IMG/VR virus record: IMGVR_UViG_3300025617_000097
Location: 1-26,137 of that record
Length of the DNA: 26,137 nt
Reading direction: 5' to 3' (one strand)
Source of the DNA: a virus
The position numbers were made by a program, and so were the translations under genes. Shown in pieces: positions 5,903 through 24,582 of the stretch (within the stretch, counting starts at the first letter, position 1; each line of letters starts with the position of its first letter). The notes under the pieces are model-generated. The model worked only from the letters and a program-made list of their open reading frames with translations, was not told the origin of the DNA and did not search any database.

Positions 5903-5911
5903 TATAAATAT
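5903..5911 (-). promoter_or_regulatory. Late-type start-proximal nonamer ATATTTATA
   Basis: The sense strand reads ATATTTATA, then CTAT, then ATG. Its first base is the last base of the upstream TGA stop, so the motif sits at the boundary between the nuclease gene and the suspected virion gene. It is one of six identical nonamers, five of which end 4-5 bases before a start codon. Confidence 0.55.
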
Positions 5912-6705
5912 CACACTTTTAGCTTAATACTTGTTGGAAGAACTTCTGTTATAGGTTTTAGGTTAGGCTGTTTGATTAAATAGATTTCATAAAGGTGTTT
6001 AAAGATTCTCTTACACTCTTCAAAAGGGGTAGTTGTTTCTTTTAGCTGCCACCCTTTTCCTTGTATAATGCCTTCTTTCTTGCTCTCTCCTCTAGTCGAG
6101 GCTTTTAGCCACAGTATACCCATTCTATCGATAGGTCTTTCAAAACTTTCGTTCCAAGATTGAGTATAGCATGCGAGCTGGAGGTCGTATGTATCGTGTA
6201 GGTAGTTGGAGGTTTTAATGTCTACCATCCATAATTCTCCTTTTATCTCAAGTATTAAATCCGCTGTTCCTGCTATCTTTAGTTCATCAGAAAATACATG
6301 TACTTCAGATTCTATAAGTGTAGGTTTATGTGTTTCCCAAAACTCTACAAACTTTAATATCATCTTCCAGACCTTAAGGCTATACTTAGTTTTACCCCAC
6401 TGGTCTAGCCAGTGAATCTCTTCTCCTTTTAGGTAAGCTTCGATAGCTTCATGTACCTGTGTTCCTTCATTACCCGCTCTTCGCATTATAATATCTGCGT
6501 TTGCTCCTACGTCTTTTAACCAGGTCTCAAAGAACTTACCTTTAGGGAAGTAGGAGAGCACAGTTGTGACGGAAGGGTAATATTTTTCTTGGTTTCTTTG
6601 GTAGAACCTACTGTCGGTTAGTGTTATTTGACGGGCAGTAGAGTCTGGATGTATAAGTCTTTTAACGAATGCATCTTTTTTAATGTCTTTGTTCTTTTCA
6701 ATCAT
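5911..6705 (-). CDS. PD-(D/E)XK superfamily nuclease (RecB/Cas4-like)
   Basis: 264 residues. It shows the RecB-family nuclease pattern: GTQVHEAIEAYL with H85, an acidic residue at E134 (SEVHV), GTADLIL with D149, the DIK catalytic core at 162-164 (VDIKTS), and motif QLACY with Q176 and Y180. These residues would bind metal and cut DNA. Stand-alone phage proteins of this kind act as exonucleases in recombination, DNA processing or host-DNA degradation. Its ATG overlaps the primase stop (ATGA), so the two are cotranscribed and probably translationally coupled, which points to a replication or recombination role. The start is fixed by that overlap. Whether it is exo- or endonucleolytic cannot be read from sequence. 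Confidence 0.85.
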   Translation of the reverse strand: MIEKNKDIKKDAFVKRLIHPDSTARQITLTDSRFYQRNQEKYYPSVTTVLSYFPKGKFFETWLKDVGANADIIMRRAGNEGTQVHEAIEAYLKGEEIHWLDQWGKTKYSLKVWKMILKFVEFWETHKPTLIESEVHVFSDELKIAGTADLILEIKGELWMVDIKTSNYLHDTYDLQLACYTQSWNESFERPIDRMGILWLKASTRGESKKEGIIQGKGWQLKETTTPFEECKRIFKHLYEIYLIKQPNLKPITEVLPTSIKLKV

Positions 6706-7628
6706 AGTTGAAATTTCTTTTCTATTAGGGTTCTAAATGTCAAGGGCTTACTCTTATGTAAGAGTTTAGTAAATTCTTCAAATCCGAGTTCAGAGGGATC
6801 TTTACCTCCTAACTCTATTAAAAAGACCTCTTTTCCGTGGTTTAGAAAGGTCTCACAGTATTCAAACGCTTGCTTTAAGGCGTCATTATCTAATGCGATA
6901 AATATCTGCTTAACACTAGATTCTACAATCTTATGCATTAACTTCTTAGGTATAGTTTTACCGAGTAAAGGTATTGCGTTTCTCTTAATTGCGATAGCGT
7001 CAAACATTCCTTCGCATATTATCAAAGGAGATTTCCAATTTACATGGAGGCCTAGAGGTAGAATGTCTTTAGAGACTTTTGGATTCTTATACTTGTAGTC
7101 TGAAGGTCCGAAGTTTCGACCTACAAAGTAGTTTAGCATTCCTTCCTCTGTATAAGAAGGTAGTATTATCATATCTCTATATTTACCGGAAGCACAGAAC
7201 CCTATTTCATATCTTTTAATTTCTAAAGGTCCTATGTTTCTACTCTTTAGGTAGCGTAATGCTTGTCTGGTTGATATATCGTTTATGTCTGGGTTATTTA
7301 GAGATCTGTACTCTTTAGGGAGTTCTATTACCTCTACGGAAGTACTTCTTTCTGAGTGGAAGGATATTTTAACATATTTCTTTAACTCCTCTAACTTATT
7401 AGAAGGAGCGGATGCTTTCCTAAAAAGAGAAGATATACTCTTACCTCGAGAATTACAAACCCAGCAATGCCAATGGTTTATACCTTCTTCATTCTCCTTG
7501 AAGTTTACTTCTAATTTAGTTTTACGGTGATTGCAAAACGGGCAATGATATGAGTAGTTAGCTCCGGAGGTAGGTTTTCCTTTTCCTAAAACACTATCAA
7601 CGAGGTTCACTAACAGGTGATTTACCAT
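6702..7628 (-). CDS. DNA primase, CHC2-type zinc finger plus TOPRIM
   Basis: 308 residues. An N-terminal zinc finger (C29-P-F-C32 and H-W-H-C55-W-V-C58) is of the kind DnaG-family primases use to read template. A TOPRIM catalytic domain follows: ICEGMFDA with E206 and D210, IALDNDA with D247 and D249, and GKDPSE at 275-280. The KSRNI...YEIGFC stretch (128-145) and the GRN at 170-172 are typical of the lead-in to TOPRIM in phage primases. It should make RNA primers for lagging-strand synthesis, like T4 gp61; no helicase domain is fused. Size agrees with phage primases of this type. It heads a two-gene operon with the nuclease, preceded by a 57-base AT-rich gap holding the TTCGTATATT element. 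Confidence 0.9.
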   Translation of the reverse strand: MVNHLLVNLVDSVLGKGKPTSGANYSYHCPFCNHRKTKLEVNFKENEEGINHWHCWVCNSRGKSISSLFRKASAPSNKLEELKKYVKISFHSERSTSVEVIELPKEYRSLNNPDINDISTRQALRYLKSRNIGPLEIKRYEIGFCASGKYRDMIILPSYTEEGMLNYFVGRNFGPSDYKYKNPKVSKDILPLGLHVNWKSPLIICEGMFDAIAIKRNAIPLLGKTIPKKLMHKIVESSVKQIFIALDNDALKQAFEYCETFLNHGKEVFLIELGGKDPSELGFEEFTKLLHKSKPLTFRTLIEKKFQL

Positions 7629-7640
7629 AATAATTATAAT

Positions 7641-7650
7641 AATATACGAA
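7641..7650 (-). promoter_or_regulatory. Candidate early/middle promoter element TTCGTATATT
   Basis: The decamer TTCGTATATT (sense) stands 12 bases before the primase ATG in a 57-base AT-rich gap. The identical decamer occurs ahead of the HD-domain gene at 25644-25653, 6 bases from its ATG. I saw no other copy. The differing spacing argues against a ribosome site and for a promoter element. It partly resembles the Bacteroidota -7 box (TAnnTTTG) but lacks an exact match. Confidence 0.35.
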
Positions 7651-7685
7651 CTTTTTTGCAGACAAACAAGCTCTTATCTACTTTA

Positions 7686-8132
7686 TTACTCTTCTATAAG
7701 GTCCTTAGGGTAAAACTTCCCAAGTATATTGGAGTTATATGAATCTTTCATTAATACTTCGAATAAGCATTGATAATGTAATTCATAGTAAGTTAGTTGT
7801 TTTTTTGAGAAAGTCAACTTTATAATTTCTCTTTTAAATTTATCTACACCTAACTCTTTTATATCCTCCAGAAGAGGTTTATTTGATCCCCAGTAGGAAA
7901 GCCAGTTGGATTCTTTAGTTACTTTCTTTTTCGTAGGTTTACGACCTGGTCCGGTTTGTTCAGAAAGTTCTTTTTTAGTAAGTTTTTTATTAAGAGTATT
8001 TAATAAAATTTTTCTACCTATATAGATTTTATTATTTTCTAGATTTGTTATTCTATATACAAAACCGTGACAATTTTCAGGGAATTGCTCTCTTGAGTTT
8101 ATTTCCTCATCTTGATATAACCATTTTGACAT
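7686..8132 (-). CDS. GIY-YIG endonuclease, probable free-standing homing enzyme
   Basis: 148 residues. The GIY-YIG core is recognisable: GFVYRITN at 23-30 in place of GIY, then YIGRK at 37-41, a basic linker (GPGRKPTKKK 61-70), SYWGS at 79-83, a candidate catalytic Glu at E117 (YYELHYQ) and an Asn-containing end (SYNSNILG 131-138). The domain cuts DNA using a metal bound by the Glu. Similar small proteins are scattered in T4-like phages as mobile intron-less homing endonucleases. It sits between tail genes and the replication pair, 14 bases from the preceding tail gene and 57 bases from the primase. It has no late-type nonamer of its own, consistent with insertion into the border. No separate DNA-binding domain is visible, so it could also be a repair or host-DNA nuclease. 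Confidence 0.75.
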   Translation of the reverse strand: MSKWLYQDEEINSREQFPENCHGFVYRITNLENNKIYIGRKILLNTLNKKLTKKELSEQTGPGRKPTKKKVTKESNWLSYWGSNKPLLEDIKELGVDKFKREIIKLTFSKKQLTYYELHYQCLFEVLMKDSYNSNILGKFYPKDLIEE

Positions 8133-8146
8133 AGAGTGTTTTGTTT

Positions 8147-9082: not shown

Positions 9083-9087
9083 TCATT

Positions 9088-10083: not shown

Positions 10084-10095
10084 ATGTTATTACTG

Positions 10096-10752
10096 TTATT
10101 GTACTTTAGTTACTGTTATTGGTATGGATACTCTAGCTCCAGAATCTCGACCTACTATTACTAAGGTAGCGGTTAGTGATGTATTAGTTCCGAATAGGGT
10201 ATTAATTGTTGTTGCAGTCATACTCAGGCTTGTACCAACTACTGTTCTAGATACTGAGGTTCCTATAGTACTAGTAGAGTTTAAAGCTTGTACTTCGGGT
10301 GTATCTATACCTACTCCGTTGAAACTATTTAGTAGCCTTACATCTGAGATAGTAAATGTATATCCGGATGTTTCGTTTACTGTACCTTGAGATAGATAAT
10401 TTAACGTATTAGGTCTTATAGTGAATGGAGTTCCTTGTTTAAATGAGACAGCAGAAACTGCTATATCTATTACAGGCATTCTAGCAGTTCCTCTAGGTAA
10501 GGTAACTAGCTTGTACTTCATTACTTGAGTCTCATCAGGGAATGCTTCTAGTAATGGCATATTCTCTATAGCTTCTCCGTAGAATCCAGACCCTGATGGG
10601 TGAGTGGGGTTATATAAAGTGTAATCTACCTCGTCATCAGATAATGCAAATTGTGTAATTCTAAAGGAGCCATCTCCTCTTGCTAGTAATTCTCTTCCCT
10701 TTTTCGTTAATATAGCGTCTAAGGTTACTGTTGTATTGTTTAAAAAGCCCAT
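10096..10752 (-). CDS. Virion structural protein with conserved MGFLNN N-terminus and Ig-like tail
   Basis: 218 residues. The N-terminus MGFLNNTTVTLDAILTKKGR (1-20), continuing GRELLARGDGSF and FALSDDEVDY, is a pattern I recognise from structural proteins of large T4-like aquatic phages. After about residue 120 the chain becomes Ser/Thr-rich with alternating beta pattern (GYTFTISDVRLL... SLTATLVIVGRDSG...SIPITVTK), compatible with an Ig-like domain of the sort that decorates tails and capsids. It begins a run of three virion genes. The preceding 49-base gap contains the late-type nonamer, here 17 bases before the ATG rather than 4-5. Function in the particle is unassigned. Confidence 0.7.
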   Translation of the reverse strand: MGFLNNTTVTLDAILTKKGRELLARGDGSFRITQFALSDDEVDYTLYNPTHPSGSGFYGEAIENMPLLEAFPDETQVMKYKLVTLPRGTARMPVIDIAVSAVSFKQGTPFTIRPNTLNYLSQGTVNETSGYTFTISDVRLLNSFNGVGIDTPEVQALNSTSTIGTSVSRTVVGTSLSMTATTINTLFGTNTSLTATLVIVGRDSGARVSIPITVTKVQ

Positions 10753-10769
10753 GTTTTACTTTTATTTAT

Positions 10770-10778
10770 TATAAATAT
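10770..10778 (-). promoter_or_regulatory. Late-type nonamer ATATTTATA, longer spacing
   Basis: Identical to the other five nonamers but 17 bases before the ATG, in a 49-base AT-rich gap. The spacer reads ATAAATAAAAGTAAAAC. The different distance argues that the element is not a ribosome-binding site and favours a promoter. Confidence 0.5.
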
Positions 10779-10801
10779 CTATTTTCTTTAAAGTTAATCA
10801 T

Positions 10802-13597
10802 TTAGTTTGTACGTGATATAGCCCCTACTCTTATAGCAACTTCTCTTGCATCGTATTGAGGGTCAAAATTCTCCGGGAGAAGTAGACCTTCTCCTGTATA
10901 TGCTCCTGGTTTATTTTTTGCTAGTATGTAGAATTCGGTAGGAATTCTTCGGATTATTCTAAAGTTTTGACTACTGTAGTCTGCAGGATCAGATAGCCCT
11001 TCCGTCTCCGGTAGTAATTCTAATAGGCTGGCGCTGTAGTTGAAGGGGTAGCTGGAGCCGGATCGTCTAAAGGTGGTAATAAAGTCGGGATTAGGGGCAA
11101 ATGATATTGTTCTCATACTGCTTATAGGTGATACCTGGCTATTACCTACTCTTATAGAAGTATCGAAACTTGCGGTGCTTGATACTCTTATGAAATCACC
11201 TCGTTGGATTGGGAAGTAGGTTTCTTCTGCCGGGTTTACAACTTCTTGAGTGTACTCGTTAGTTTTTGAATTGTATATATAAACGTTTCCCAAACTCTGC
11301 ATAGCAGAGGGAAAGTTGTTTGGATAGTTGGCGGGGTTAGAATTTATAAGGTCTATCCAAGCTCCTTCAAACTGTGAGGAGGTATATGGAATCCACATGG
11401 GTTGATTAAAGCTTGGGGAGACGCTATCGGGTAGGGCAACTAAGGATTGTGTTACTGCAATACCGTTGTGGAATCCTACGGGTCTATCGCTTGGGGAGGA
11501 ATAGGCGTAGGAAATTGCTCCATTTGGATAGTTACTACCTAGGTGTCCGGATCCCGCACTTCCTGATTTCATCAATATGGTTTGATATAGTTCCCCTACG
11601 GCTTCTAATTCTACTGCTCCTTCAAGTATTTCGTCCAGTGTGGCTGGTGCTATTGAGGGTCTATCTCCTTGCTTAAATAACTGTCCTATAAAATCTAGAT
11701 TTGTATTTTCAGAAGTTAGCGTTATAGTATCTTCTGTTTCAGCATTAATTAGCTGTGTTATATTAATATTTCCTCCTATGCCTATACCGAGTTCTGCAGA
11801 ATTATATATTCCGTTAAAGTGGGCAAACCATGGGGTTAATCTATCTGCCGGGTATCCGGTTTGAATAGATCTATCGGCGAAGGATTGATTAATATTTATC
11901 TCCCCGCTGTTTTTACTACCTAGATATCTCGGTGTTATACTCCTTAAACTCGTATAATTTGAATCCGGTACAATCGCAGGGATAGCGGATCCAGAGAGTA
12001 TTAAATCTATATTGACGGGGGTTCTTGCATTAGATGAATAGTCTACATCTTGGTAGAGTGTTGAAGCTCTATTATCCTCTACGTTGTTTAGTATTGGATC
12101 AGGGTTAATTGAATGTAATATTTGTGCAGTTGTAGTTGACCCGGAGTATTCTCCATTATAAAATTCATACTGTGATGATTCTATTTGAGTAACTAGCCCT
12201 GCAGGAGTTGAATAGCTTGCAGTCCATGCTTGATTAGAACCTGTTAAACTGTTAACAGAACCTCCAGGCCCTCCGCTAAATACTTCTATAGTACCTGCTT
12301 CATATCCTCTTGATTGAGGTTTGATAGATCCGGTAAGAGTTTCATCTCTTAATGTGACTTGGGCTGGCCTTACTCTATTTCTCTCCAGTAGATGTTGTTT
12401 TACTGTAACTCCGGTAGCTAGTCCTGCTCTTACCGGTGTAAAATCTTTTATCATCTGAAATACTGCGTTATCGTAGTATTTAGATAATCTTATATAGTCT
12501 TTGTAGTTGTAGCTTTTACTGTACTTGTTGAAGTACCTATTTTTTAAACTTACTAAATCAGGGTAATCTCTAAGAGGAGAGGTAACTTGTCTAGGGTCTC
12601 CAATATACTCTCCTATATTAAAGTATCCGTAGGTTGCGTTTATATCGTCATTTATTTCATTCTGAGGGGAGAGAGTGATTTCAGCATAGTTAACATCTCT
12701 AGTAGAGCTTTGGCTAATCTGTAGATTTTGCTGTATTTGTAATTGTGAGGATAAGACTTTATTATCTGGTATATTACTAAAGGTGGAGGATGTAAGAGGT
12801 AGTACTAGGTTAGGTCTTTTAATTTTATCTGATATTCTGTTTCGAACTCCTCCTAATACTTGATCAACTAGAATAGTTTCGTAGTTAGGTCCGAAAGAAC
12901 CGCTTATAAGAGTGAAGTTATTTCCAGTTGAGAAAGAATTGCTCTGTACTGCCCCTCCAACTCCAGGATGAATAGAACTTGATTGTGTGAATAATTCTCC
13001 TCCTAGACTTGCCCGGAAGGTTAAATCACTACTACCTTCTATAGAGTTAGGATTTTGAGTATAGGCATCAAATTGCTGCTCTGTTATAGTTTCTGTAAAA
13101 TATCTTAATTCTTGTAGCTGTCCGTTAAATGGTATGTAGGTTTTGGATAGAGTGGTCGTTGATCCTGATCCGGGGAAGTATACTGTACCTGCATTATTCC
13201 AATCTAATGATCCGGTAAAGGAATCAGTCGCTTTGAATCCTACTGTGTTTCCATCTACTCCGTCATATAGTTTATTTGCAGCATATAAGGTGTAGGTATA
13301 GTTATTACTCTGTGCTACCATTACAGACCACCAACCTCCATCTAAGAAGGGTAGGTATACACTTGCAAATGTTCCTATGTCTTCATGAGTGAACTTTAGG
13401 GTTCCGTACTTACTATATGGGTCTGGTATTGATCCAGAATATGATCCGCTTGCTAGTGATGAGGTATGTTCTAATACGACTGTGAATTGCGGGTCGTCAT
13501 CGTTGTCGATATTTACAAAAAGGGATTGAGAGGGGGGTGTATTTGCAGTAACTGCAGGGCTCTTAAATCTAAACTGTATGGTTTTTATTATCGACAT
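10802..13597 (-). CDS. Large tail/baseplate-periphery protein with LamG-like N-terminal domain
   Basis: 931 residues. Residues about 25-190 look like a LamG/concanavalin-type sandwich: GGWWSVMVAQ at 87-96, a run of aromatic beta-strands, and the closing FNGQLQELRYF ... NPNSIEG at 157-188. Such domains often bind glycans. A central segment (about 330-400), with NYKDYIRLSKYYDNAVFQMI and then FTPVRAGLATGVTVKQHLLE, is a recurrent block in large structural proteins of aquatic myoviruses. The remainder is Ser/Thr/Gly/Asn-rich without enzyme motifs. It is preceded by the late-type nonamer 4 bases from its ATG, and by the adhesin gene 20 bases upstream. A tail-fibre or baseplate-rim role is inferred. 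It may be the second half of one larger protein in relatives. Confidence 0.75.
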   Translation of the reverse strand: MSIIKTIQFRFKSPAVTANTPPSQSLFVNIDNDDDPQFTVVLEHTSSLASGSYSGSIPDPYSKYGTLKFTHEDIGTFASVYLPFLDGGWWSVMVAQSNNYTYTLYAANKLYDGVDGNTVGFKATDSFTGSLDWNNAGTVYFPGSGSTTTLSKTYIPFNGQLQELRYFTETITEQQFDAYTQNPNSIEGSSDLTFRASLGGELFTQSSSIHPGVGGAVQSNSFSTGNNFTLISGSFGPNYETILVDQVLGGVRNRISDKIKRPNLVLPLTSSTFSNIPDNKVLSSQLQIQQNLQISQSSTRDVNYAEITLSPQNEINDDINATYGYFNIGEYIGDPRQVTSPLRDYPDLVSLKNRYFNKYSKSYNYKDYIRLSKYYDNAVFQMIKDFTPVRAGLATGVTVKQHLLERNRVRPAQVTLRDETLTGSIKPQSRGYEAGTIEVFSGGPGGSVNSLTGSNQAWTASYSTPAGLVTQIESSQYEFYNGEYSGSTTTAQILHSINPDPILNNVEDNRASTLYQDVDYSSNARTPVNIDLILSGSAIPAIVPDSNYTSLRSITPRYLGSKNSGEININQSFADRSIQTGYPADRLTPWFAHFNGIYNSAELGIGIGGNINITQLINAETEDTITLTSENTNLDFIGQLFKQGDRPSIAPATLDEILEGAVELEAVGELYQTILMKSGSAGSGHLGSNYPNGAISYAYSSPSDRPVGFHNGIAVTQSLVALPDSVSPSFNQPMWIPYTSSQFEGAWIDLINSNPANYPNNFPSAMQSLGNVYIYNSKTNEYTQEVVNPAEETYFPIQRGDFIRVSSTASFDTSIRVGNSQVSPISSMRTISFAPNPDFITTFRRSGSSYPFNYSASLLELLPETEGLSDPADYSSQNFRIIRRIPTEFYILAKNKPGAYTGEGLLLPENFDPQYDAREVAIRVGAISRTN

Positions 13598-13601
13598 CTA
13601 T

Positions 13602-13610
13602 TATAAATAT
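13602..13610 (-). promoter_or_regulatory. Late-type start-proximal nonamer ATATTTATA
   Basis: The sense strand reads ATATTTATA, then ATAG, then the ATG of the 931-residue protein. It occupies about half of the 20-base gap after the adhesin gene. It is one of five copies with 4-5 base spacing. Confidence 0.55.
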
Positions 13611-13617
13611 TGATTTA

Positions 13618-16600: not shown

Positions 16601-16875
16601 TATCCATTAGACTGTAAGTCTTTTCCTGGAGATATTGATAGTGCTGCAGTCTCTTCCCCTACCGGTAATCCGTTGATTTCATATCCGGTAGTTATTCGGT
16701 CGATAAAGGTACCTTCTATATCGTATAGGTATGCTTGGATAATATCTGTCGATACATTGAAGGTGGAATTTAGAACTATACTGTTTATGTTAGCTCCATC
16801 TTCTGCTGATATTGTAGGTAATGTAGTTCCTTCTATAGTACCTACTCCTAGGGATATTACTGTTGGTTCTGCCAT
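13618..16875 (-). CDS. Tail adhesin: virion module, PKD-like domain and 12 BspA-like (DUF285) repeats
   Basis: 1085 residues. Residues 1-580 look like a phage structural module: Asn/Ser/Thr-rich, with LPYLLKKKGTTAGLRVLL (529-546) and GIPDTILRISEFGG (550-563), a block I recognise from large virion proteins of aquatic myoviruses. At 600-662 is a PKD/Ig-like domain (VDWGDGST at 623-630, then KTHNYSTSGTKYVTI at 641-655). From 721 to about 1020 run 12 units of roughly 24-30 residues of pattern MF-x-x-A-x-x-F-N ... W-D-T-x-N-V-T-x-M, the BspA-like/DUF285 repeat. The C-terminus (YDALLQGW at 1032-1039, YNWTINDLGG 1075-1084) matches the usual ending of Bacteroidota surface proteins with this repeat. 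A receptor-binding role is inferred. Its ATG overlaps the preceding stop (TAATG). Confidence 0.85.
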   Translation of the reverse strand: MAEPTVISLGVGTIEGTTLPTISAEDGANINSIVLNSTFNVSTDIIQAYLYDIEGTFIDRITTGYEINGLPVGEETAALSISPGKDLQSNGYTRGEYQVLYNFVSPLVDNNPNFFISEVSLDRTELRVNSSTLLPPQLRGVYQTLLADLNDTRTFEGFYLDFGSNQLEFAVNVGYDSDTILIKLYEPLDNNFGEGSNFNFLAKKADSQAYQVQYPEEEIQLDTKKYLRGPNLYLKTGTQTNNTTEYKSINTLTSASTAGITNQLQSVLAENRAELNTDYTDYSNFAFFSSVNTRLTNFNYKATQIESHEAQIATLNGLTGTPVTELSASKAFYEGEIKRIIKNFDGYDYYLYYESSSYAWPKQNSTKPYTPYSYTSSEATNWLTAQAASASAYDRENLNNLYEIFPSYIKDDEDNSQFKLFSELTAQMFDEIWIYTKALENRQDGDNSLSGGISIDLVADALRSYGLDIYESSFTNSDLFTGLLGITETGGTLPPTGSELITNYVTASAETIPSNDAQKLIYKRLYHNLPYLLKKKGTTAGLRVLLNCYGIPDTILRISEFGGKDKNVNTWDNWYNQYNYSYNTSGSGYVSTPWEGAGFVSEWIATSPISLPLVPNGTYNMTVDWGDGSTDIITAWDDAAKTHNYSTSGTKYVTITGTIKGFAFNNTGYTSSLTDIRSFGPLELSTSASFYGADELGPSARPTSLQYKLTATDKPRVSTTSMKDFFRGANNLSGSIDRWNTKTVLSMERAFQDATRFNTPLPWDTSNVTTLKHTFKNARDFNQTLLWDTGLVTDMSGTFAEAVSYNKPISWDTGNVTTFAHMFHSASAFNQPVDGLVTDSGITLEHMFDGARSFNQSINNWDISNVGSLKGMFQNAYSFNENFTFSSPDTTAGVADMSYMFSDATSFGFNIPAPGNNLTIWNTLNVWNMEYMFKGATEFNMDLSHGASGAWDTQNVTNMRGMFREATSFAGTGSGGGVSSWDTRNVTDMSEMFFDATSFNADISSWNISSLQQATGMFAVTAGTSSFSQTNYDALLQGWAAQPIIQSNVSFDVAQHFTLSSPASASRAVLQNPPYNWTINDLGGI
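13816..14715 (-). repeat. Coding region for 12 BspA-like (DUF285) repeat units
   Basis: Units begin near residues 721, 746, 772, 796, 820, 845, 870, 898, 930, 960, 990 and 1015 of the adhesin. Each carries an aromatic pair followed by A-x-x-F/Y-N, and most have W-D-T-x-N-V-T before the next unit. Units at 870-930 are longer, with insertions. They are diverged from each other at the DNA level, so this is an old array rather than a recent expansion. Confidence 0.85.
14890..15078 (-). other. Coding region for a PKD/Ig-like domain
   Basis: Residues 600-662 of the adhesin. VDWGDGST and the later HNYSTSGTKYVTITG are hallmark strands of PKD-type folds, which in Bacteroidota surface proteins commonly stand just before DUF285 repeats, as here. 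Confidence 0.65.
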
Positions 16876-17267
16876 TATGATACTGTATCTATATTATTTG
16901 CTAGATTTATTGCATCTGCTGCTGTTTTAGTTGCTAGCTGTGCTATCTGCTGTTGTAGAGCTATATTTTGTTCCCGTAAATCTGTCACCTCTGCAGTCAA
17001 AGCTTCTATTTCTGCATTTATGTCTTCTCCCCCTGCATATTCCCCGCTTCTATTGGCTAGGTATTGATGTGATTGAGTTTCACCTTGTTTTGGTATTTCT
17101 AAAAATAAAATATCATAAGCTTCAAAAAAGGTATTTACATCTACTTGAGATACAATACTCTCCTCAGGTTCTCCGGTAACTCCGAATTCAGTAAAAGAAG
17201 TATTTACTGCTTTAGTGAATTGAGCACGATTATAGGTTGTTAGGTTTATATCTACGTTTTCACTCAT
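16875..17267 (-). CDS. Small coiled-coil virion protein
   Basis: 130 residues, not recognised as a named family. The N-terminal 70 residues are mixed. Residues about 81-113 (EDINAEIEALTAEVTDLREQ and onward) form a clear heptad-pattern coiled coil rich in Glu and Gln, so it likely oligomerises, perhaps as a trimeric connector for the fibre-like proteins on either side. Start and stop both overlap neighbours: 8 bases with the 374-residue gene upstream and one base (TAATG) with the adhesin downstream. This tight packing supports a shared assembly and fixes the start. Confidence 0.7.
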   Translation of the reverse strand: MSENVDINLTTYNRAQFTKAVNTSFTEFGVTGEPEESIVSQVDVNTFFEAYDILFLEIPKQGETQSHQYLANRSGEYAGGEDINAEIEALTAEVTDLREQNIALQQQIAQLATKTAADAINLANNIDTVS

Positions 17268-18384
17268 TACTTATCTTAAACTCTTCTGTATCTTTAATAA
17301 GGACTGTATCTCCGATAGTAGTTTTTATTTCAATCTTATAGTATCTCTCCGGTTGTAATCCGTTTAAGTATAAGTCGAAGTAACTTCCGGTTGGATCACA
17401 ACTTATCTTAGTATAAGAAGAATCATATTCAATAGCAACTTCATTCGTATAAACATCTTTAACTCTGTAGAAGGATTCTGCTGGGAGAGCATAGTTTCTA
17501 GTATAGGAGGATCCTGTTTGGTATACCTTAGGAGGGTATGTAGGTCTTGCATTTACTCTAAATCTATTAACGCTTCCGCTGTAGAATGTCCCGGGGTTGT
17601 TTGAGAGTGTAAGTGTTGCAGGGAGTGTATTTAATACTGTAAGACTACCGGTGTTATATGTGAAGTCATCCCATTTAAATTCTAACTCTGGAGGAAATAT
17701 CGTATGTGTATCTCTTGAAAAGTATTTTAAAGTTGTTTGTTCATGTATATTATCTATAAACTCCTGAGATGCTGATTGTCTTACTATTATTCCGTAGTTG
17801 TTGAAATCAGAGGATGACCAGTTAGTTACTATATCGGTTATATTGGCTTGTATATCAGGGTCTGTGTAATATGAAAAAGAGTAAGATGCTTCAGATCCGG
17901 TATACCATACACCTCCTCCTGCAGAAGTTGAGTTGGTGTTTAAGTTAAATGATCCTGTTGTTCCAGGTGCAAAGGAAGATGTAGTCCATTGAGTACCTCC
18001 TTCATAAGTCCTGTTCTTCCAAGAAACTCCATTTTGTGTTTCTGGGAGGTCTAAGTATCTACCGGTGCCCATATTCCAATCCTCTGCTAGAGCATTAATA
18101 TTAATAGTGCTTGTTGATGTTAATCCAGTTACATTTGCTGTATAGGATTTAAAGTCCGCTCTCCATGTAGAATCTAATATCTTAGTGGCAAATATACTCT
18201 CTATTTCTGCTTGACTAAATTTTAAGAGGAATCTCGATACTTGAGGATTCGCTCCTTCTGTTTGGGGATTCCCGGTCTTAAAATCTGTACTTGCTTCTAA
18301 TATTTCATCTAACCCTGTATTGGCATCTACATACCCAGAGTATAGTGTTGCGTCTGCTGTTGGAAATAGTTTGTAAATGGCCAT
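17260..18384 (-). CDS. DNRLRE-like beta-rich tail/baseplate protein
   Basis: 374 residues. The opening IYKLFPTADATLYSGYVDAN (3-22) and the later DIQANITDIVTNW ... NYGIIVRQS (about 178-203) match the DNRLRE-domain pattern, a beta-sandwich common in secreted and cell-surface proteins. The C-terminal part has a fibronectin/Ig-like look (YKIEIKTTIGDTVLIKDTEE near the end). No catalytic motif. It heads the 374-130-1085 gene run, with the late-type nonamer 4 bases before its ATG, and follows the gp6-like wedge gene by 39 bases. The position next to baseplate wedge genes suggests it links baseplate and fibres. The structural role is inferred. Confidence 0.7.
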   Translation of the reverse strand: MAIYKLFPTADATLYSGYVDANTGLDEILEASTDFKTGNPQTEGANPQVSRFLLKFSQAEIESIFATKILDSTWRADFKSYTANVTGLTSTSTININALAEDWNMGTGRYLDLPETQNGVSWKNRTYEGGTQWTTSSFAPGTTGSFNLNTNSTSAGGGVWYTGSEASYSFSYYTDPDIQANITDIVTNWSSSDFNNYGIIVRQSASQEFIDNIHEQTTLKYFSRDTHTIFPPELEFKWDDFTYNTGSLTVLNTLPATLTLSNNPGTFYSGSVNRFRVNARPTYPPKVYQTGSSYTRNYALPAESFYRVKDVYTNEVAIEYDSSYTKISCDPTGSYFDLYLNGLQPERYYKIEIKTTIGDTVLIKDTEEFKISNE

Positions 18385-18388
18385 TTAA

Positions 18389-18397
18389 TATAAATAT
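18389..18397 (-). promoter_or_regulatory. Late-type start-proximal nonamer ATATTTATA
   Basis: The sense strand reads TCATATTTATATTAA and then the ATG of the DNRLRE-like gene; the spacer is TTAA. The 14 bases TCATATTTATATTA are identical to those at the copy near 23814. Confidence 0.55.
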
Positions 18398-18423
18398 GAG
18401 GAGTTATTAATCTTAGTTACTTA

Positions 18424-20283
18424 TTATAAGGATACCACCCTCCCTCTAATATCTGTATCCGGGTATTTAACTTCAAATACGCAAGGATCTAATGAAGGAT
18501 ATACTACGTTATTTTGAGTTGCTCCTTCTATGTCGTAAGCGTATTCAGAATATCCTTGAGAAACACCTGTTTTATTAGTAATGTAAATATCTTTAACTGT
18601 TTGTACTCCATTTATCTTATCTAGATTTATAAAGAGTTCTTTAAGTAGGATGGGCTGGTTGAAGGTCCAGTTATCTATTGCAAAATAATCCTGTAGTTCT
18701 TCTATACATCTACTTAATACTTCATTGTTATTAAAGTTGGGGAGTGTTATTATTTCAAAATCAATTGCTATATTAATTACAAATCCGTCTTTTATCTTTA
18801 CAGTATCTCCTATAATTCTATATTCGGATAAATAAGTACTTAAGTTCTGTTTAACTGTATTAGAGGATGTTATTAGGTGTTTAGCAGAGTCGAATCCTAG
18901 TACGTATAAACTTAACGTAGAAGGTATTTCTCCGGGTAAGGTGTTATCGTTAGCTTTAGTAGCTTCTACATAACTCTTTGCGATTGCTCCGTAATCAGAA
19001 GGCATAGAGAGGGCTCGTATCGCATAATCCTTAGTTGTTACGTTTCTTAATTGAGATTGAAAGCCTACTAATGTATTCTGCCTTATCTCCTCTAGAGTAT
19101 CTCCATCTCCTCCTCCGGAAGCTGCTAATTCATTATTTACTGTAACGCTTGAGAATATATAATTTGAAGTAGTACTGTTTAGATTACTATTTTGAAAAGC
19201 GATATTCCCTGTACTAGTTAATGTTGTTACAGTATCTGCTTCAACATTAGAGGAGACTCCTCCTCCTGTTAAGTATCGAATAGTTAGTGTTGTGTTTGCA
19301 GGAGCGATTCCGTAGGTATCGGTCTGTAGAAAGTTTGAAGGATCGAATGCGGTAGTTAGTTTTATTTGCTCGAACGGTAAACCTATGCCTACATTATTTC
19401 CGTTTGGTAGTATCTCTTCGTCAACGTCAGAGGTTGTTCCGGATCCAAACTGTATTTCTAGGGAGTTATCAGCTCTAAAGCGAGTGGTGAATCTTCTAGC
19501 GATCTTCTCGAGTTTTAATAGATATTGAGCGTCTGTATCTGTATAGCTGTTAGGGTCGTTGGTGTTTGTATTTTTTGTAGACTTATAAATTAACTCTTGA
19601 CCTAGATACGGTACTTCGTACCAGGTATTACCGTCTGAGTCTGTTATATCTAGAATTTTAATGATATTAGTGTCGGCGATATTTACTGTATCGAAAGGGG
19701 TAGGTGTTGTAAATGTTGCGGTCTGCGTTTGGATGGTTGATGATAGAGCTTTTCGCTTTTTCTTTAGAAGGTAGTATTGAGGATTACCGCCGCTAGTCTG
19801 GTAGATTGTAACCTCTGTCGGGTCTAAAGAACTTGATACAGTAAAATCTACTGTGTCTTGTATTAGAAAATTAATCCCTCCAGGGTCTGACTGTACTACT
19901 GTATTTTCTTGAAAGAAGAGTGCGTAGTCATAATCTGGAATGTATGTTCCTCCGGATAGTTTTGCAGGGAGTTGTTGGTATAGGTCTACCTCTACTGTAG
20001 AGGTTTTTGTTACTTTAGGTCTATATCCTAACATATATGCAAGATTAAAGATACTTTCAGTCTGCCTTGCGTATTGTACGAATGTCTCTTGTATTTGATT
20101 ATCTAAGTAGAAGGATAATATGTCTCCAACATAGGCGGACATCTCTAAGACCATCATTCCGGGTGAGGATGGAGAGAAATCGTTGTAGGTATTAGGGTAG
20201 TAGGTTTTAGTGAAGTCTACTAGTAGGTCTTTTAATCCTACGAAGTCTCTATTGAAGTATCTGATGTCTTTAATATTAGGCAT
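18424..20283 (-). CDS. Baseplate wedge protein, T4 gp6-like
   Basis: 619 residues. The N-terminal block with YYPNTYNDFSPSSPGMMVLE at 28-47, followed by AYVGDILSFYLDNQ and QTESIFNLAYMLGYRPK, is the characteristic gp6 wedge signature (SPGM ... AYVGD ... LGY). The C-terminal third has the baseplate-J-like pattern, including TLEEIRQNT, TKDYAIRAL, and ILLKELFINLDKINGVQTVKD. In T4, gp6 dimers form the inner ring holding wedges around the hub and drive the baseplate shape change at contraction. Length is close to T4 gp6. It overlaps the upstream gp25-like gene by 8 bases, the same partner order expected in T4-like wedge modules. Confidence 0.9.
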   Translation of the reverse strand: MPNIKDIRYFNRDFVGLKDLLVDFTKTYYPNTYNDFSPSSPGMMVLEMSAYVGDILSFYLDNQIQETFVQYARQTESIFNLAYMLGYRPKVTKTSTVEVDLYQQLPAKLSGGTYIPDYDYALFFQENTVVQSDPGGINFLIQDTVDFTVSSSLDPTEVTIYQTSGGNPQYYLLKKKRKALSSTIQTQTATFTTPTPFDTVNIADTNIIKILDITDSDGNTWYEVPYLGQELIYKSTKNTNTNDPNSYTDTDAQYLLKLEKIARRFTTRFRADNSLEIQFGSGTTSDVDEEILPNGNNVGIGLPFEQIKLTTAFDPSNFLQTDTYGIAPANTTLTIRYLTGGGVSSNVEADTVTTLTSTGNIAFQNSNLNSTTSNYIFSSVTVNNELAASGGGDGDTLEEIRQNTLVGFQSQLRNVTTKDYAIRALSMPSDYGAIAKSYVEATKANDNTLPGEIPSTLSLYVLGFDSAKHLITSSNTVKQNLSTYLSEYRIIGDTVKIKDGFVINIAIDFEIITLPNFNNNEVLSRCIEELQDYFAIDNWTFNQPILLKELFINLDKINGVQTVKDIYITNKTGVSQGYSEYAYDIEGATQNNVVYPSLDPCVFEVKYPDTDIRGRVVSL

Positions 20284-20686
20284 TGTTTAGGTTTAATTGT
20301 ATGGTGTCGGTAACTCCTGTGTTTGTTATAGTATAATTTATTACAGTAAAGAGTGTATTTCTATCCTCGTCTGCTCGTAACTCAACTGTAGCTTGTATAC
20401 TAGGAAAGAATTCTGCTATAGATACTTCTATATACTCTTGTATTTCCTCTATGTTACCTTGGCTTAGTTGTTCAAATATAAATGTTTGCAACCCTGCTCC
20501 AAATCCAGGCTTAAAAGGTCTTTCTCTAGGGCCGGTAAGTAGGAGGTTGATTAAATTGTATCTTATAGAATCCTTAGTAGTATAGGTTGTTTTAAATACT
20601 GCAGGACCGTTAAGAGGTAATGCTATACCTACTCCTTTACTAGGTTGATTATCTATTGGATATATTTTGGTTGCGTTAATGGCCAT
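20276..20686 (-). CDS. Baseplate wedge protein, T4 gp25-like
   Basis: 136 residues, the typical size for the gp25/lysozyme-like baseplate family. Key signature: IRYNLINLLLTGPRERPFKP at 41-60, then GFGAGLQTFIFE, then an Ile/Glu-rich segment with FFPSIQATVELRAD at 93-106. The family sits at the tail-sheath/baseplate junction and starts sheath assembly. Despite the family name, no lysozyme activity is expected. It overlaps the gp6-like gene by 8 bases and begins 2 bases after the stop of the 122-residue gene. Confidence 0.9.
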   Translation of the reverse strand: MAINATKIYPIDNQPSKGVGIALPLNGPAVFKTTYTTKDSIRYNLINLLLTGPRERPFKPGFGAGLQTFIFEQLSQGNIEEIQEYIEVSIAEFFPSIQATVELRADEDRNTLFTVINYTITNTGVTDTIQLNLNNA

Positions 20687-20688
20687 TA

Positions 20689-21057
20689 TTATCTTTTATT
20701 AATTAAGCCCATAATTTGATCCATGTTTACTTCACCGGGAGGTAAGGCGGAGCCTTGTCCGGTAGTATTAGCAGATGGTGGTGGGGTATATCCTGGTTGT
20801 TTTCCATACCCTTGGGCGTGGGTAGAGTTCATTGAGATTTCAGTCTGTCCGGGTCCCATTCCGTTTAGTAGGTTAGCGTACCTCTCCTTACCTATAGGAG
20901 TTGGTGTAGTTTTTAAATTACTTGCTAGGTTTTCGGTTACTGGTTGAGCTGTAGATTTAGGAGCTTTGACTGCTTCGAGGAGTATTTCTCTCAACTCCTC
21001 TCCGATAGCTTCTTTTACAGCTTCTTTGATCATTGCTTTTAATTCTGTAGATTTCAT
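20689..21057 (-). CDS. Small virion-associated protein with charged helical N-terminus
   Basis: 122 residues. The first 32 (MKSTELKAMIKEAVKEAIGE...) form one amphipathic helix rich in Lys and Glu. The rest is Pro/Gly/Gln/Asn-rich and probably disordered, ending MDQIMGLINKR. Proteins with this kind of start are frequent in the structural regions of aquatic T4-like phages, but I cannot name a function. It leads the wedge operon with gp25 and gp6 and has the late-type nonamer 5 bases before its ATG, so coexpression with the baseplate is likely. It might be an assembly factor or a small baseplate component. Confidence 0.65.
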   Translation of the reverse strand: MKSTELKAMIKEAVKEAIGEELREILLEAVKAPKSTAQPVTENLASNLKTTPTPIGKERYANLLNGMGPGQTEISMNSTHAQGYGKQPGYTPPPSANTTGQGSALPPGEVNMDQIMGLINKR

Positions 21058-21062
21058 TCTTT

Positions 21063-21071
21063 TATAAATAT
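21063..21071 (-). promoter_or_regulatory. Late-type start-proximal nonamer ATATTTATA
   Basis: The sense strand reads ATATTTATA, then AAAGA, then ATG: 5 bases of spacer. It sits in the 17-base gap between the 415-residue gene and the wedge operon. Confidence 0.55.
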
Positions 21072-21074
21072 TTG

Positions 21075-22322
21075 TTAAAATGCTTTTAGATTATCTCTAT
21101 CTATAATGAGTTTTAGTTCTTCAATTAACACCTTAGGGTTTTGAGTGAAGGATGGTTCGGTCTCAAGAGCTATTATTCCTTCTGTGTTTAATGCTTGAGC
21201 TATTCGACGCGTTACTGTTGGGTCGTTAGGTAGTTTAACTTCTACTATTTCAAACGTAAATCCTCTATAAGATTGTTGAGTGTTTGATTGGTTTGTAGTT
21301 TCTGCTTCTTGTACAAATCTTTTTGTTTCCGGTCCTGGTTCATTAGCTTCTAGTCCACATGTTTCCAGTAGCGGTTTTAGGAGTTTAAGGATTAGTAATA
21401 TTATATTTACTACAGCAGCAGCTAGGGAGAGGTAAAATGCTCCGTCCTTTAGTGTAAATTTCTTTTCCTTCTGTATAGGGGTTCCGTCTGCTTTAAATGT
21501 TAGGGCGTTTATAGCGTCAGTTACATCTGTGATTGCAGAGGTTATCCCGGAAGGGGTTGGGGCAGCTGCTAGAGGGGGAATTTTTAAAGCTTGATTTACT
21601 ACGGTCTTTGCGATTTCTAAAGCACTTTTTGCATTTAGACTACCGTTAATTACTTGTGTTGCTACGTTGAGGGTTGCAGAGGAGAGGTTTAAATAAAAGG
21701 AGGTCTCTTCTACTACGTTTAATAAATTATTATATTTGTCTAGTATCCTCTTACCTTCTTCTGGTGTTGCTGGACAGTAGGGAGGTTTTGTATTAATTAA
21801 ACTGAGGGCGAGTTCTTGTGCTTTAGGTTTAAGAGTCTGTAGTATTTCTTCCTTCGAAGGGGTTTCTAGGGAATCGAAGTTTAAAGGTAGTAGTTGGTCT
21901 GTGAATTGGTCTCCTATTAAAGTACCTAAGGTGCTTATTTCAGATACTTTAACTTCTACAGGGGAGATAGTTAATTTCTTTACGGGAGATTGTATATCAG
22001 CAGGTATATCGGGTAGGTTTAAGTCTTCGATATTTGCAGTGGGAGGAGGTATGGTGATGGAGGGGTCTCCAGACTCTACGCCAGATACTCCGAACTTAGT
22101 AGCTATCTCATTTAACTGGTCTGTAGCGAGTGTTTGAAGTCTTGCTACTTTTTCAAGTACTGTTTGGTTAACTTTATTAAGTCCTTTTAGCTCCTTGGGA
22201 GGGTCGACGGAAGAGATTCCACTTGTTAATAAGTCTTGTATATTCTTCTTAACTTGCTTCTGACCTGCTATACTCGCTCTTGTAGAGCGTCCATTAACTA
22301 ATTGCTTTATTCGTTCGTTCAT
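21075..22322 (-). CDS. Baseplate-region structural protein with one hydrophobic segment
   Basis: 415 residues, not recognised as a named family. The N-terminal 75 residues are helical and polar. About 85-120 is Pro-rich. About 155-250 is helical. A strongly hydrophobic stretch at about 293-316 (GAFYLSLAAAVVNIILLILK) could span a membrane. The C-terminal 60 residues (FTFEIVEVKLPNDP...) are a small alpha/beta domain. A transmembrane-like segment in a protein encoded between spike-like and wedge genes would fit a hub or tape-like component that contacts the host membrane during DNA entry. That role is inference. It starts 3 bases after the spike-like gene and lacks its own promoter-like motif. 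Confidence 0.7.
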   Translation of the reverse strand: MNERIKQLVNGRSTRASIAGQKQVKKNIQDLLTSGISSVDPPKELKGLNKVNQTVLEKVARLQTLATDQLNEIATKFGVSGVESGDPSITIPPPTANIEDLNLPDIPADIQSPVKKLTISPVEVKVSEISTLGTLIGDQFTDQLLPLNFDSLETPSKEEILQTLKPKAQELALSLINTKPPYCPATPEEGKRILDKYNNLLNVVEETSFYLNLSSATLNVATQVINGSLNAKSALEIAKTVVNQALKIPPLAAAPTPSGITSAITDVTDAINALTFKADGTPIQKEKKFTLKDGAFYLSLAAAVVNIILLILKLLKPLLETCGLEANEPGPETKRFVQEAETTNQSNTQQSYRGFTFEIVEVKLPNDPTVTRRIAQALNTEGIIALETEPSFTQNPKVLIEELKLIIDRDNLKAF

Positions 22323-22325
22323 AAT

Positions 22326-23471
22326 CTACTCAATATATACAGTTTCGGATTTAAGATTCTTTGCTAAGTCTTTTAACTTCACGATTTGAGGTTTAAGTAG
22401 GGTGAGTGCTTGTAGGTTTGCAATAGGTACCCCGGCGGCAGTGGCGGTGCTACTACTATTTATAATTTGCTCTAATAGTGCGATGATAGAAAGTAGTACG
22501 TCTTCAGTTAATTCTCCGTACAGTACAGGTTCTTTAGCGTCTTTACTTCCTAGAAGTATTTTTTCTGCCTGCATACTAACCTCTTCAGTGTCCACGTTAA
22601 GTGTTTTTTGACTATTGAGATTTATAGATTGCGGAGAGCTTAGGAAGATACTATCTGTTTTACTATTGAAAAATAATCTACCGGAATTTAATACTATCTG
22701 GTCTCCTCTATAATCTTTAGCAGGAGTAGGTAGTTTTTTGTAGCTATAGTAATCTCTAACACTGCTGGGTTCTAGCGGTATTTGTTGACCGTTAGTTAGG
22801 TATATACTAGAGTTATCGTTATTTATATTCTCTTCGGTTGGAAGAAATCCAACCTGCCCTTGTAGACCTTGGCCGTTTCTTAGAATAGTAATAGGTTGTC
22901 CGTTAAAGCTACCAGTAGACCAGTTACTTAAAGGTTTACCGCCTCTCTGTACTGTTGTCCCAAATCTTAAAGAACTTCCTACTCTACTCTCTACTATAAC
23001 ATCTCCTTCAAACTTCTTTAAAGGTTTTATATTGGATTGTTCTATAAAGTAATTCCCTAAATCTAACGGTGCTGGTCTATCTGAGATATTTTTATTTGCA
23101 CCGGTTTGGGTTTGTAGGTAATCTCGTTGTTCCGATTCCGGTATATCTTTATTCTCGATAATGTTCGGAATAGCGTTATGATGCTGACTACTCCAGACGT
23201 TTAAGGGTGTTATGTAGTAGTATGTTTCTCGTTCAAGATTTTCTTGTATGTCTGAGGATGGGAGTGAGAAGATATATACTAATTCGTTACGTAAAGGGTA
23301 GTTGCAGAAGTTAGGAAAGTATGGTTTTGCAAAGCCGGTAGATCTATAAGTACCTCCTTTAACTTTTTTAAATACTACAGTACCTACACCGTTCCATCCG
23401 CCGGCATCGGTGAAGTATTTACTAGTTGTATCTAGTACTATGTCACTAACTACTGCTGTTTCGAATTTCAC
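22326..23471 (-). CDS. Baseplate spike/hub-like protein
   Basis: 381 residues. The start is GTG, overlapping the TGA of the 113-residue gene (GTGA); no ATG lies nearby in frame. The N-terminal half has an OB-fold-like look (NELVYIFSLPS 62-72, TYYYITPLNVWSSQHHNAIP 83-102) with a recurring signature GDVIVESRVGSSLRFG at 156-171 that I associate with spike/hub proteins of T4-like aquatic phages. Residues about 253-310 have short repeating beta strands (QIVLNSGRLFFNS, DSIFLSSPQSINLNS, TLNVDTEEVSMQA), as in triple-stranded spike helices, closed by EPVLYGE at 314-320. A helical tail follows. It should form the membrane-piercing tip or hub plug. No lysozyme motif is visible, unlike T4 gp5. Confidence 0.7.
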   Translation of the reverse strand: MKFETAVVSDIVLDTTSKYFTDAGGWNGVGTVVFKKVKGGTYRSTGFAKPYFPNFCNYPLRNELVYIFSLPSSDIQENLERETYYYITPLNVWSSQHHNAIPNIIENKDIPESEQRDYLQTQTGANKNISDRPAPLDLGNYFIEQSNIKPLKKFEGDVIVESRVGSSLRFGTTVQRGGKPLSNWSTGSFNGQPITILRNGQGLQGQVGFLPTEENINNDNSSIYLTNGQQIPLEPSSVRDYYSYKKLPTPAKDYRGDQIVLNSGRLFFNSKTDSIFLSSPQSINLNSQKTLNVDTEEVSMQAEKILLGSKDAKEPVLYGELTEDVLLSIIALLEQIINSSSTATAAGVPIANLQALTLLKPQIVKLKDLAKNLKSETVYIE

Positions 23472-23809
23472 TTCTTATTACCTTCTTCAAGTTTATTAAC
23501 TTCCTGCATTAGTTGCTCTATCTCTTCTTCTGAGATTAATAATGTGTCTTCTGCAGAACCTTGAGAGTTTACTATTCTCTGTATGATTGTAGCCATTTTT
23601 ATTAAATGGTCGTCGTTTTTTATTCCTGCATCTAGATATTCCCGTATCAGGGGTACAATTATTGTAGCATCCCCTGTATCTTGAATAAGAGGTTGAAGCT
23701 CTCTAATCATAGCAGTTATTTGCTTACTCTTCTTCTTCTGATTAGTGTATATCTCTTCGAGTATGTCTGAGAATTTCTTATCTTTGAAGATTAATTTATC
23801 TAAACTCAT
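23468..23809 (-). CDS. Small helical protein of the baseplate operon
   Basis: 113 residues, predicted almost wholly alpha-helical, rich in Lys, Glu and Ile (FSDILEEIYTNQKKKSKQIT at 13-32; DDHLIKMATIIQRIVNS at 66-82), with an acidic end (EEEIEQLMQEVNKLEEG). No named family recognised. By position before the spike-like gene it could be an assembly chaperone or hub factor comparable in role to T4 gp26 or gp51, but there is no sequence evidence for that. Its stop overlaps the GTG start of the spike-like gene, and the late-type nonamer lies 4 bases before its ATG, so it leads that operon. Confidence 0.65.
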   Translation of the reverse strand: MSLDKLIFKDKKFSDILEEIYTNQKKKSKQITAMIRELQPLIQDTGDATIIVPLIREYLDAGIKNDDHLIKMATIIQRIVNSQGSAEDTLLISEEEIEQLMQEVNKLEEGNKK

Positions 23810-23813
23810 ATAA

Positions 23814-23822
23814 TATAAATAT
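23814..23822 (-). promoter_or_regulatory. Late-type start-proximal nonamer ATATTTATA
   Basis: The sense strand reads TCATATTTATATTAT and then the ATG of the 113-residue protein; the spacer is TTAT. It is in the 26-base gap between the sigma factor gene and the baseplate genes, exactly where regulatory genes give way to virion genes. Confidence 0.55.
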
Positions 23823-23835
23823 GAAGTGAATGAAT

Positions 23836-24582
23836 TTAGAAGCCTGTATACCCGTTCTCTAGATAGAATATATAATGCTTCTTATAGAGGGCTGCTAATA
23901 TCTTAGCTACTTTAGTAATTTTAGCAGTCTTTACGTCAGTTATCTCCCGTATATAGATGTAGAGTGCTTTTTTATTAAAGAGTGTAATATTGTCTCGTTT
24001 TCTAAAAAGTTCTAGGATTGCATCTGCTATTTTAGCATGCTCTTTTTTAGGAAAGAGTTCGTAAATGTTAGTAGAACAGTAGTAAATATACTCGTTCATA
24101 AAGTGTGTAAGATCACTTTCTTGACGTAGTAGTATATTTTCTGGTGTGTTTTCTTCGACGTCTAAGGGTTCGCCGGATGTATAGTGACTATCTTCTTGTT
24201 CTAGATGTATATTATCTAAAGAGACAACTTCTAATCTTTTCTTATAATTCTTTTGATTAGATGCGATAAGATACCTTTTAGCAACTGTACCGAAGTATGA
24301 ATAAGCCTTTGCTCCGTTTGTAGGGTCAAATTTATGTAATTTTGTTAGTAGGAAGGTTATAACTTCATGTTGAAGATCTTCTAGGTTAGCTTCTTCAGTG
24401 TAATAAAATTTAAAAGTATGAATAAGGTTTTGTGTTAACTTAAATAAAGGGTAATGTATTTCTTCTTGATATATCTTATTCTTCACTTCATAGTCTTCCG
24501 TTTCGTTATAACGGTTTATAGCGAGTTCAGTATCATGTGTAAAGTAGTTTTTAGACTTCTTTTTTCTCTTCTTCTTCTCCAT
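23836..24582 (-). CDS. Late-transcription sigma factor, T4 gp55-like
   Basis: 248 residues. A Lys/Arg tract opens the protein (2-11). Residues about 36-106 resemble sigma region 2: LFKLTQNLIHTFKFYYTEEA (46-65), then DLQHEVITFLLTKLHKFDPT and AYSYFGTVAKRYLI (93-106), the pattern of T4 gp55-type sigma factors, which bind core RNA polymerase and read the -10 box. The C-terminal part (about 215-240) is helical and basic (KTAKITKVAKILAALYKKHY). A hydrophobic clamp-binding tail like that of T4 gp55 is not obvious; the end is YLENGYTGF. Its first 32 bases overlap the end of the membrane-protein gene. It probably directs transcription of the tail genes that follow it. Confidence 0.85.
   Translation of the reverse strand: MEKKKRKKKSKNYFTHDTELAINRYNETEDYEVKNKIYQEEIHYPLFKLTQNLIHTFKFYYTEEANLEDLQHEVITFLLTKLHKFDPTNGAKAYSYFGTVAKRYLIASNQKNYKKRLEVVSLDNIHLEQEDSHYTSGEPLDVEENTPENILLRQESDLTHFMNEYIYYCSTNIYELFPKKEHAKIADAILELFRKRDNITLFNKKALYIYIREITDVKTAKITKVAKILAALYKKHYIFYLENGYTGF

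Follow-up and report, generated by a model that had tools for sequence, protein, structure and literature searches.

What is the function of a nine-base word that recurs on the coding strand, shortly before the start codons of gene clusters, in a virus? The question is posed by a stretch of 26,137 bases that constitutes the whole of IMG/VR virus record IMGVR_UViG_3300025617_000097 (hereafter the window), with its genes on the minus strand, in which the nonamer ATATTTATA occurs six times. An initial annotation had placed these copies 4, 4, 4, 4, 5 and 17 nucleotides (nt) before the ATGs at 5898, 13597, 18384, 23809, 21057 and 10752, and the same positions were recovered here. All six lie on the minus (coding) strand and fall within the 352 of 26,137 bases outside the window's 24 genes, which were called with ATG starts only; 100 dinucleotide shuffles contained a mean of 1.41 copies, and none reached six. 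On the plus strand, the octamer core TATTTATA occurs only twice (22457 and 22820), both times within a gene. The comparisons described below make it very probable that ATATTTATA serves as a single-box late promoter in a T4-like myovirus lineage of Flavobacteriia-type hosts, kin of Flavobacterium phage immuto, that it is read by a phage-encoded sigma factor, and that the copies near an ATG would give rise to leaderless mRNAs.

Relatives of the window

Window proteins match those of Flavobacterium phage immuto (41.5% for the primase), with a gene order largely common to both, and also those of Microcystis phage Mel-JY01; megablast of the window against phages returned no match. Relatives in IMG/VR were collected by the nuclease (56 loci) and by a baseplate protein (at least 594 candidate stretches, 80 of them kept), and a search of genome contigs with the baseplate protein gave 38 pattern matches with no relative among them. 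A sigma profile search of genome bins yielded eight loci, residing in metagenome-assembled genomes (MAGs) of Winogradskyella, Flavobacteriales, Flavobacteriaceae and Paludibacteraceae, in three MAGs titled "bacterium" (two) or "uncultured bacterium" (one), and in a Prochlorococcus contig. From these sources we infer that the hosts are mainly Flavobacteriia.

Near-identical records were removed before counting. G001, a near-copy of the window, and G013, a near-copy of G014, were dropped from the 12-record intergenic count and from the cluster-head count, and L001-L004 (window copies) and L276-L290 (T4, gp55 phages and Mel-JY01) were dropped from the non-redundant site counts and the counts of host-type spacing. 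Contexts at least 80% alike were collapsed in the non-redundant site counts, and the orthologue comparison left out homologues of the 13597 gene below 55% identity and contexts lacking a nearby in-frame ATG.

The box is concentrated between genes

Across the relatives, ATATTTATA shows a summed strand bias of 236 versus 17 copies, present in 17/17 records (near-copies G001 and G013 included); a reversed-word control is uninformative for this nonamer because it reads identically backwards. In 12 records totaling 1.007 Mb, 200 of the 263 copies of TATTTATA are intergenic where intergenic sequence makes up 7.2%, and of 56 anagrams ATATTTAT and TATTTATA take first and second place. The motif search across relatives that the initial annotation had proposed thus bears out its expectation, with 325/472 non-redundant TATTTATA sites lying between genes as opposed to 52/246, 63/267, 83/395 and 26/259 (21, 24, 21 and 10%) for four control words. 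Moreover, the intergenic copies carry A at position -1 in 84%, at +11 in 75% and at +12 in 81% of the cases, compared to 31, 33 and 43% for the 144 copies inside genes, and these flanks, common to the intergenic copies and not to those in genes, suggest that function probably resides in the copies between genes.

The box keeps company with a phage sigma factor

The sigma factor that we propose as the reader of the box is encoded at 23836..24582 on the minus strand, and combines a sigma region 2 with an extra C-terminal helical domain. Region 2 is recognized by Pfam Sigma70_r2 with an E-value of 2e-4 and a score of 21.5 bits, where the curated threshold is 24. Structural re-alignment of the model, which is of moderate quality at full length (pLDDT 73, pTM 0.42), returned a list composed mostly of sigma factors, with SigB at Z 10.9 and T4 gp55 (7d7c_F) in the second row at Z 10.4 over 114 residues and an rmsd of 4.2; the whole protein gave no Foldseek match at E 0.001 and no match to the PDB by phmmer. 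The conserved C-terminal domain (window 23836-24147), extra relative to T4 gp55, is modeled alone with a pLDDT of 85.5. It gave no Foldseek match at E 0.001 by itself, and its best re-aligned row is a weak one, the region 4 of sigma-E at a Z of only 5.2, so that any likeness to region 4 is tentative. The annotation of this gene as a gp55-like sigma factor therefore stands as regards region 2 and structural likeness, and its relation to gp55 rests on region 2.

Of the eight loci that were collected with the sigma profile and no other criterion, seven have the box ahead of the gene that follows, including the Prochlorococcus contig with a sigma identity of 27%. Likewise, in Mel-JY01, which is annotated to a cyanobacterial host, the box precedes late genes, most often 27-39 nt upstream. 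Shine-Dalgarno (SD)-like sequences stand before 29% of Mel-JY01 genes versus a 6% background; in the window and immuto relatives their frequency is 0-8%, below background in 8/8 records. Taken together, the sigma-only loci and Mel-JY01 indicate, on this comparative evidence, that the box travels with the sigma factor and that its spacing follows the host's mode of translation initiation.

Mel-JY01 also encodes a ribosomal protein bS21 near its prohead protease (L287 22183-22410). The idea that a phage bS21 remodels ribosomes for leaderless mRNAs was considered and rejected, as PF01165 is found in Mel-JY01 only (1/13 records) and was not found in immuto or in 10 relatives.

The distance to the start codon moves while the box stays

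The distance between box and ATG is two-peaked, with 73 non-redundant sites at 3-5 nt, 21 at 6-9 nt, 173 at 10-21 nt and few farther away, and orthologous genes retain the box while its distance shifts between 3-5 and 7-23 nt. Phage immuto, which infects Flavobacterium sp. LMO8, combines the two kinds of site in one genome: by the gene calls of this analysis, its boxes stand 1, 4, 4 and 4 nt from an ATG and, in 20 further cases, at 10-33 nt. All six exact copies in the window (minus strand) have counterparts in relatives. The box at 23814..23822, 4 nt before the ATG at 23809, is present in 63/68 orthologous contexts at 0-23 nt; that at 21063..21071, 5 nt before 21057, in 52/53 contexts at 3-14 nt; and that at 18389..18397, 4 nt before 18384, a start codon common to the immuto homologue, in 27/64 contexts at 4-14 nt. 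The box at 13602..13610, 4 nt before 13597, recurs in 4/4 contexts of at least 55% identity, and the one at 10770..10778, 17 nt before 10752 and hence leadered, in 37/40 contexts at 7-21 nt. At 5903..5911, where the box and its spacer fill the entire 12-bp gap and the nonamer begins on the final base of the TGA that ends the upstream gene, the box lies 4 nt before the ATG at 5898 and is found in 19/20 contexts at 4, 12 or 13 nt. The one-base octamer variant reported before 1321 is likewise present: TATTTATT at 1327..1334 (minus strand) ends 5 nt before that ATG, and was compared with a single near-identical relative.

These distances bear on the possibility that the box is a Kozak-like, AT-rich signal for translation initiation at a fixed distance before the ATG, to which a constant 4-5 nt in all copies would have pointed. 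Such a signal would agree with the spacing of 4-5 nt at five of the six window copies and with the preference of Bacteroidota, which lack SD sequences, for A-rich sequence before the ATG, as given in the available text of PMC6847099. However, the position lock is not general, the spacing across relatives ranging from 3 to more than 20 nt; an identical box stands at 0 to 23 nt in orthologues of a single gene (23809), it is concentrated at the cluster heads of one gene class, and it lies most often 27-39 nt upstream in Mel-JY01, a relative with SD-like sequences. A translation signal is thus very improbable and was rejected on account of the distance moving among orthologues; a box that remains constant while its distance to the ATG moves argues for a promoter.

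Predicted start point of transcription

Among 169 leadered late sites, in which 13-40 nt separate the box from the ATG, A occupies the fourth and fifth positions after the octamer in 80% and 88% of the cases, and these two positions are the most informative ones outside the nonamer. At a spacing of 4 nt, the A of the ATG is exactly the fifth base after the octamer. Host-type promoters in these phages peak 4 nt before the ATG as well (29/156 sites), and promoters of F. johnsoniae have 4-5 nt from the -7 element to the start according to the available part of PMC6847099. The A-rich bases, the shared 4-nt peak and the F. johnsoniae spacing together predict initiation on or adjacent to the A of the ATG at the near-ATG boxes. 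The codon found at spacing 4 is ATG in 46 cases, GTG in none and TTG in one (of 328 sites).

A late promoter might also initiate within the reading frame, with a later start codon in use, in which case the mRNAs would not be leaderless. The T4 late promoter numbering of -13 to -6 (PMC1524935, available text) lends itself to this, since it makes +1 the T of the ATG at spacing 4. Against it, the proteins starting at 10752, 18384 and 23809 align with their immuto counterparts from residue 1, so that these ATGs are probably the real starts, and ATG is in strong excess at sites with a spacing of 3-5 nt, which would be pointless if that ATG were unused. We consider internal initiation unlikely. Late-type promotion with leaderless mRNAs from the start-proximal copies, as the initial annotation had put it, is accordingly backed by comparative evidence, the 5' ends themselves being predicted.

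Gene classes and the early promoter

Genes were classed by homology to immuto blocks, defined from the immuto annotation, with unassigned genes outside the class counts. The late box occurs at 68/131 virion-block cluster heads versus 24/171 others (Fisher p 1.3e-12), and the early box at 4/131 versus 16/171. Another 75 unassigned cluster heads carry the late box, 72 of them alone and three together with the early box. Within the window, the claim that the boxes head virion clusters holds from 10752 to 23809, where it is backed by homology or by the place of the genes in the virion block of immuto; for 5898 and 1321 it is unsupported, and the immuto homologue of the 5898 gene sits outside that block. 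With the 24 genes placed, no late box stands before the genes for the primase, the nuclease, the HD protein or the sigma factor, in agreement with the initial annotation.

An unsupervised word count also yields CGTATATT, the core of a second promoter class that has a TTG 21 nt upstream (86, 82 and 88% per base) and a -7-like TATATTTA. By its sequence, this class, which serves early genes, matches the host-type promoter of Bacteroidota, given as TTG at -33 and TAHHTTTG at -7 in the available text of PMC6847099. In the window, the early box TTCGTATATT is found on the minus strand at 7641..7650 before the primase gene (7628), with TTG at 7667-7669, and at 25644..25653 before the HD gene (25637), with TTG at 25670-25672.

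Could the late box itself be a degenerate form of this promoter, a Bacteroidota -7 element for the host primary sigma factor, with the phage sigma factor reading something else? Both boxes are AT-rich and occupy the same place, host-type promoters share the 4-nt peak before the ATG, and five genes carry the two boxes fused as CGTATATTTATA. But the late box has no -33 signal: it lacks the TTG that reaches 82-88% per base in early sites, TTTGG is found upstream of 3% of late versus 35% of early sites, and in the late-site profile from -40 only the A at -1 exceeds 0.4 bit among the upstream positions. In addition, TATTTATA does not fit TAHHTTTG, the late box is constant while the early motif differs between clades, and the late box follows the sigma factor into cyanobacteria-linked loci. 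A host-type identity of the late box is therefore improbable.

The fused sites combining early and late boxes are at immuto 90688 and 128591, G015 89813, G006 39798 and G011 14522; these genes are perhaps expressed throughout infection.

Proposed mechanism and points against it

From the motif, its strand and place, its flanks, the moving distance, the gene class and the company of the sigma gene, all read from the sequence, we infer recognition, start point, leaderlessness and late timing. In the proposed late promoter, the phage sigma factor (24582-23836) most likely brings the host RNA polymerase to the box, with no -33 element involved, and transcription would initiate on an A some 4-5 nt downstream of its end. 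If only 3-5 nt separate the box from the ATG, the initiating A would be the A of the start codon or lie within 1-2 nt of it, giving a leaderless or nearly leaderless mRNA; where it is 10-21 nt away, a short A-rich leader would result. Early genes would use a different, host-type promoter.

Several observations weigh against this proposal. In the deduplicated set, 147 of the 472 TATTTATA copies are not counted as intergenic, 144 of them being clearly inside genes; 24/171 non-virion cluster heads carry the box and 63/131 virion heads are without it; no box is found within 50 nt of the major capsid gene of immuto, and orthologues of the 18384 gene lack it in 37/64 contexts. The likeness of the sigma factor to gp55 is weak, both against phrog_234 (gp55), with E 0.085 for the window and 0.5 for immuto, and against the gp55 family at full length by hhalign (E 4e-4, probability 34.6, 101 columns), and one of the eight sigma loci (L298) has no box. 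Lastly, the start point can be placed only to within 1-2 nt: under the T4 numbering (-13 to -6), a spacing of 4 would make +1 the second base of the ATG, and 90% of the spacing-4 sites have an A two bases before the ATG, which could produce a 2-nt leader.

In L298, a Paludibacteraceae MAG with a GC of 0.46, the sigma factor is 28% identical and no TATTTATA boxes are nearby; a different late box may be in use there.

Genes downstream of the probable late promoters

Downstream of the late promoter at 21063 lie two baseplate wedge genes on the minus strand, one at 18424..20283 (phrog_10646, phrog_219), which we take to be gp6-like, and one at 20276..20686 (phrog_261, phrog_43), presumably gp25-like. 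The late promoter at 5903 heads a cluster that includes the gene at 1343-4927 for a 1194-residue protein composed of polymerase-beta-like nucleotidyltransferase, cytidyltransferase-like, polynucleotide-kinase-like and weakly peptidase-like segments.

Comparison with known systems

Late transcription in T4 is a textbook case built on the box TATAAATA, the sigma factor gp55, the coactivator gp33 and the clamp gp45. The late promoters proposed here share with those of the T4 late/gp55 type (Straboviridae, Kyanoviridae) a single AT-rich box of 8 bp, placed roughly one helical turn before the start, the lack of a -35 element, the location before virion genes and a small region-2 phage sigma factor. 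They differ in the box, TATTTATA instead of TATAAATA, in the extra C-terminal domain of the sigma factor and in the box often being 3-5 nt from the ATG. Furthermore, gp45 and gp33 (PF02916, PF16805) were detected in 0/10 relatives with a positive T4 control, by family models that may miss diverged homologues; the immuto annotation lists family A polymerases. In these phages TATAAATA is intergenic at 52/246 sites, the level of a control word, versus 325/472 for TATTTATA. The promoter class works like that of T4, yet we do not assign it to the T4 type, since the test for the TATAAATA box showed that it is not the one enriched.

As annotated initially, TATTTATA is the exact reverse complement of TATAAATA. 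The orientation puzzle seen in this relation dissolves, since both boxes, each read on the coding strand, are the same but for two bases in the center: TATWWATA is nearly palindromic, and changing its two central bases produces the reverse-complement look. Orientation was accordingly rejected as a clue. Non-template-strand reading is the mode of gp55 and of sigma region 2, which counts against a template-strand account of the box. In such an account the sigma factor would read TATAAATA on the template strand, the T4 box being kept and strand-swapped in the manner of the AR9 nvRNAP (PMC9209446, available text). The exact complementarity speaks for it, but two substitutions in a near-palindrome are the simpler explanation and the structural comparisons of this analysis gave no sign of template reading, which leaves template reading with hardly any probability.

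A more specific version of the late-promoter reading is possible but doubtful: a clamp-independent relative of T4 late transcription, in which the C-terminal domain acts as a flap-binding (region-4-like) domain replacing gp33, a large share of the virion mRNAs are leaderless, a given promoter may be leaderless in one orthologue and leadered in another, and selection acts against leaders of 1-5 nt. If true, it would provide leaderless virion mRNAs in hosts whose own mRNAs mostly carry leaders; of the host transcripts in Flavobacteria to which a probable promoter can be assigned, about 87% have leaders longer than 10 nt, by the available text of PMC6847099. Promoters abutting the start codon predict leaderless virion mRNAs in Flavobacteria, and a widespread, partly cultured relative of T4 late transcription that differs in its box and in the architecture of its sigma factor, and that may lack a clamp, raises the question of which parts are essential. 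In the literature searched, whose coverage excludes most subscription papers and all of bioRxiv, no description of TATTTATA as a phage late box was found among the matches listed.

Three other systems offer parallels. The primary-sigma promoter of Bacteroidota is matched by the early promoters of these phages, including the 4-nt geometry, whereas the late box has no -33 element and a different core. The late promoters of Aeh1 (CTAAATA; PMC1524935, available text) similarly pair a diverged gp55 with a diverged late box, but the change there is at the -13/-12 end and here in the center. In Deinococcus-Thermus, the available text of PMC12340547 describes a -10 motif adjacent to open reading frames, which lies within a few bp of the start codon, on its upstream side, and likewise leads to leaderless mRNA; there, a host sigma factor and chromosomal genes are concerned, in contrast to a putative phage sigma reader and late genes here, where orthologues would moreover switch between leaderless and leadered transcripts.

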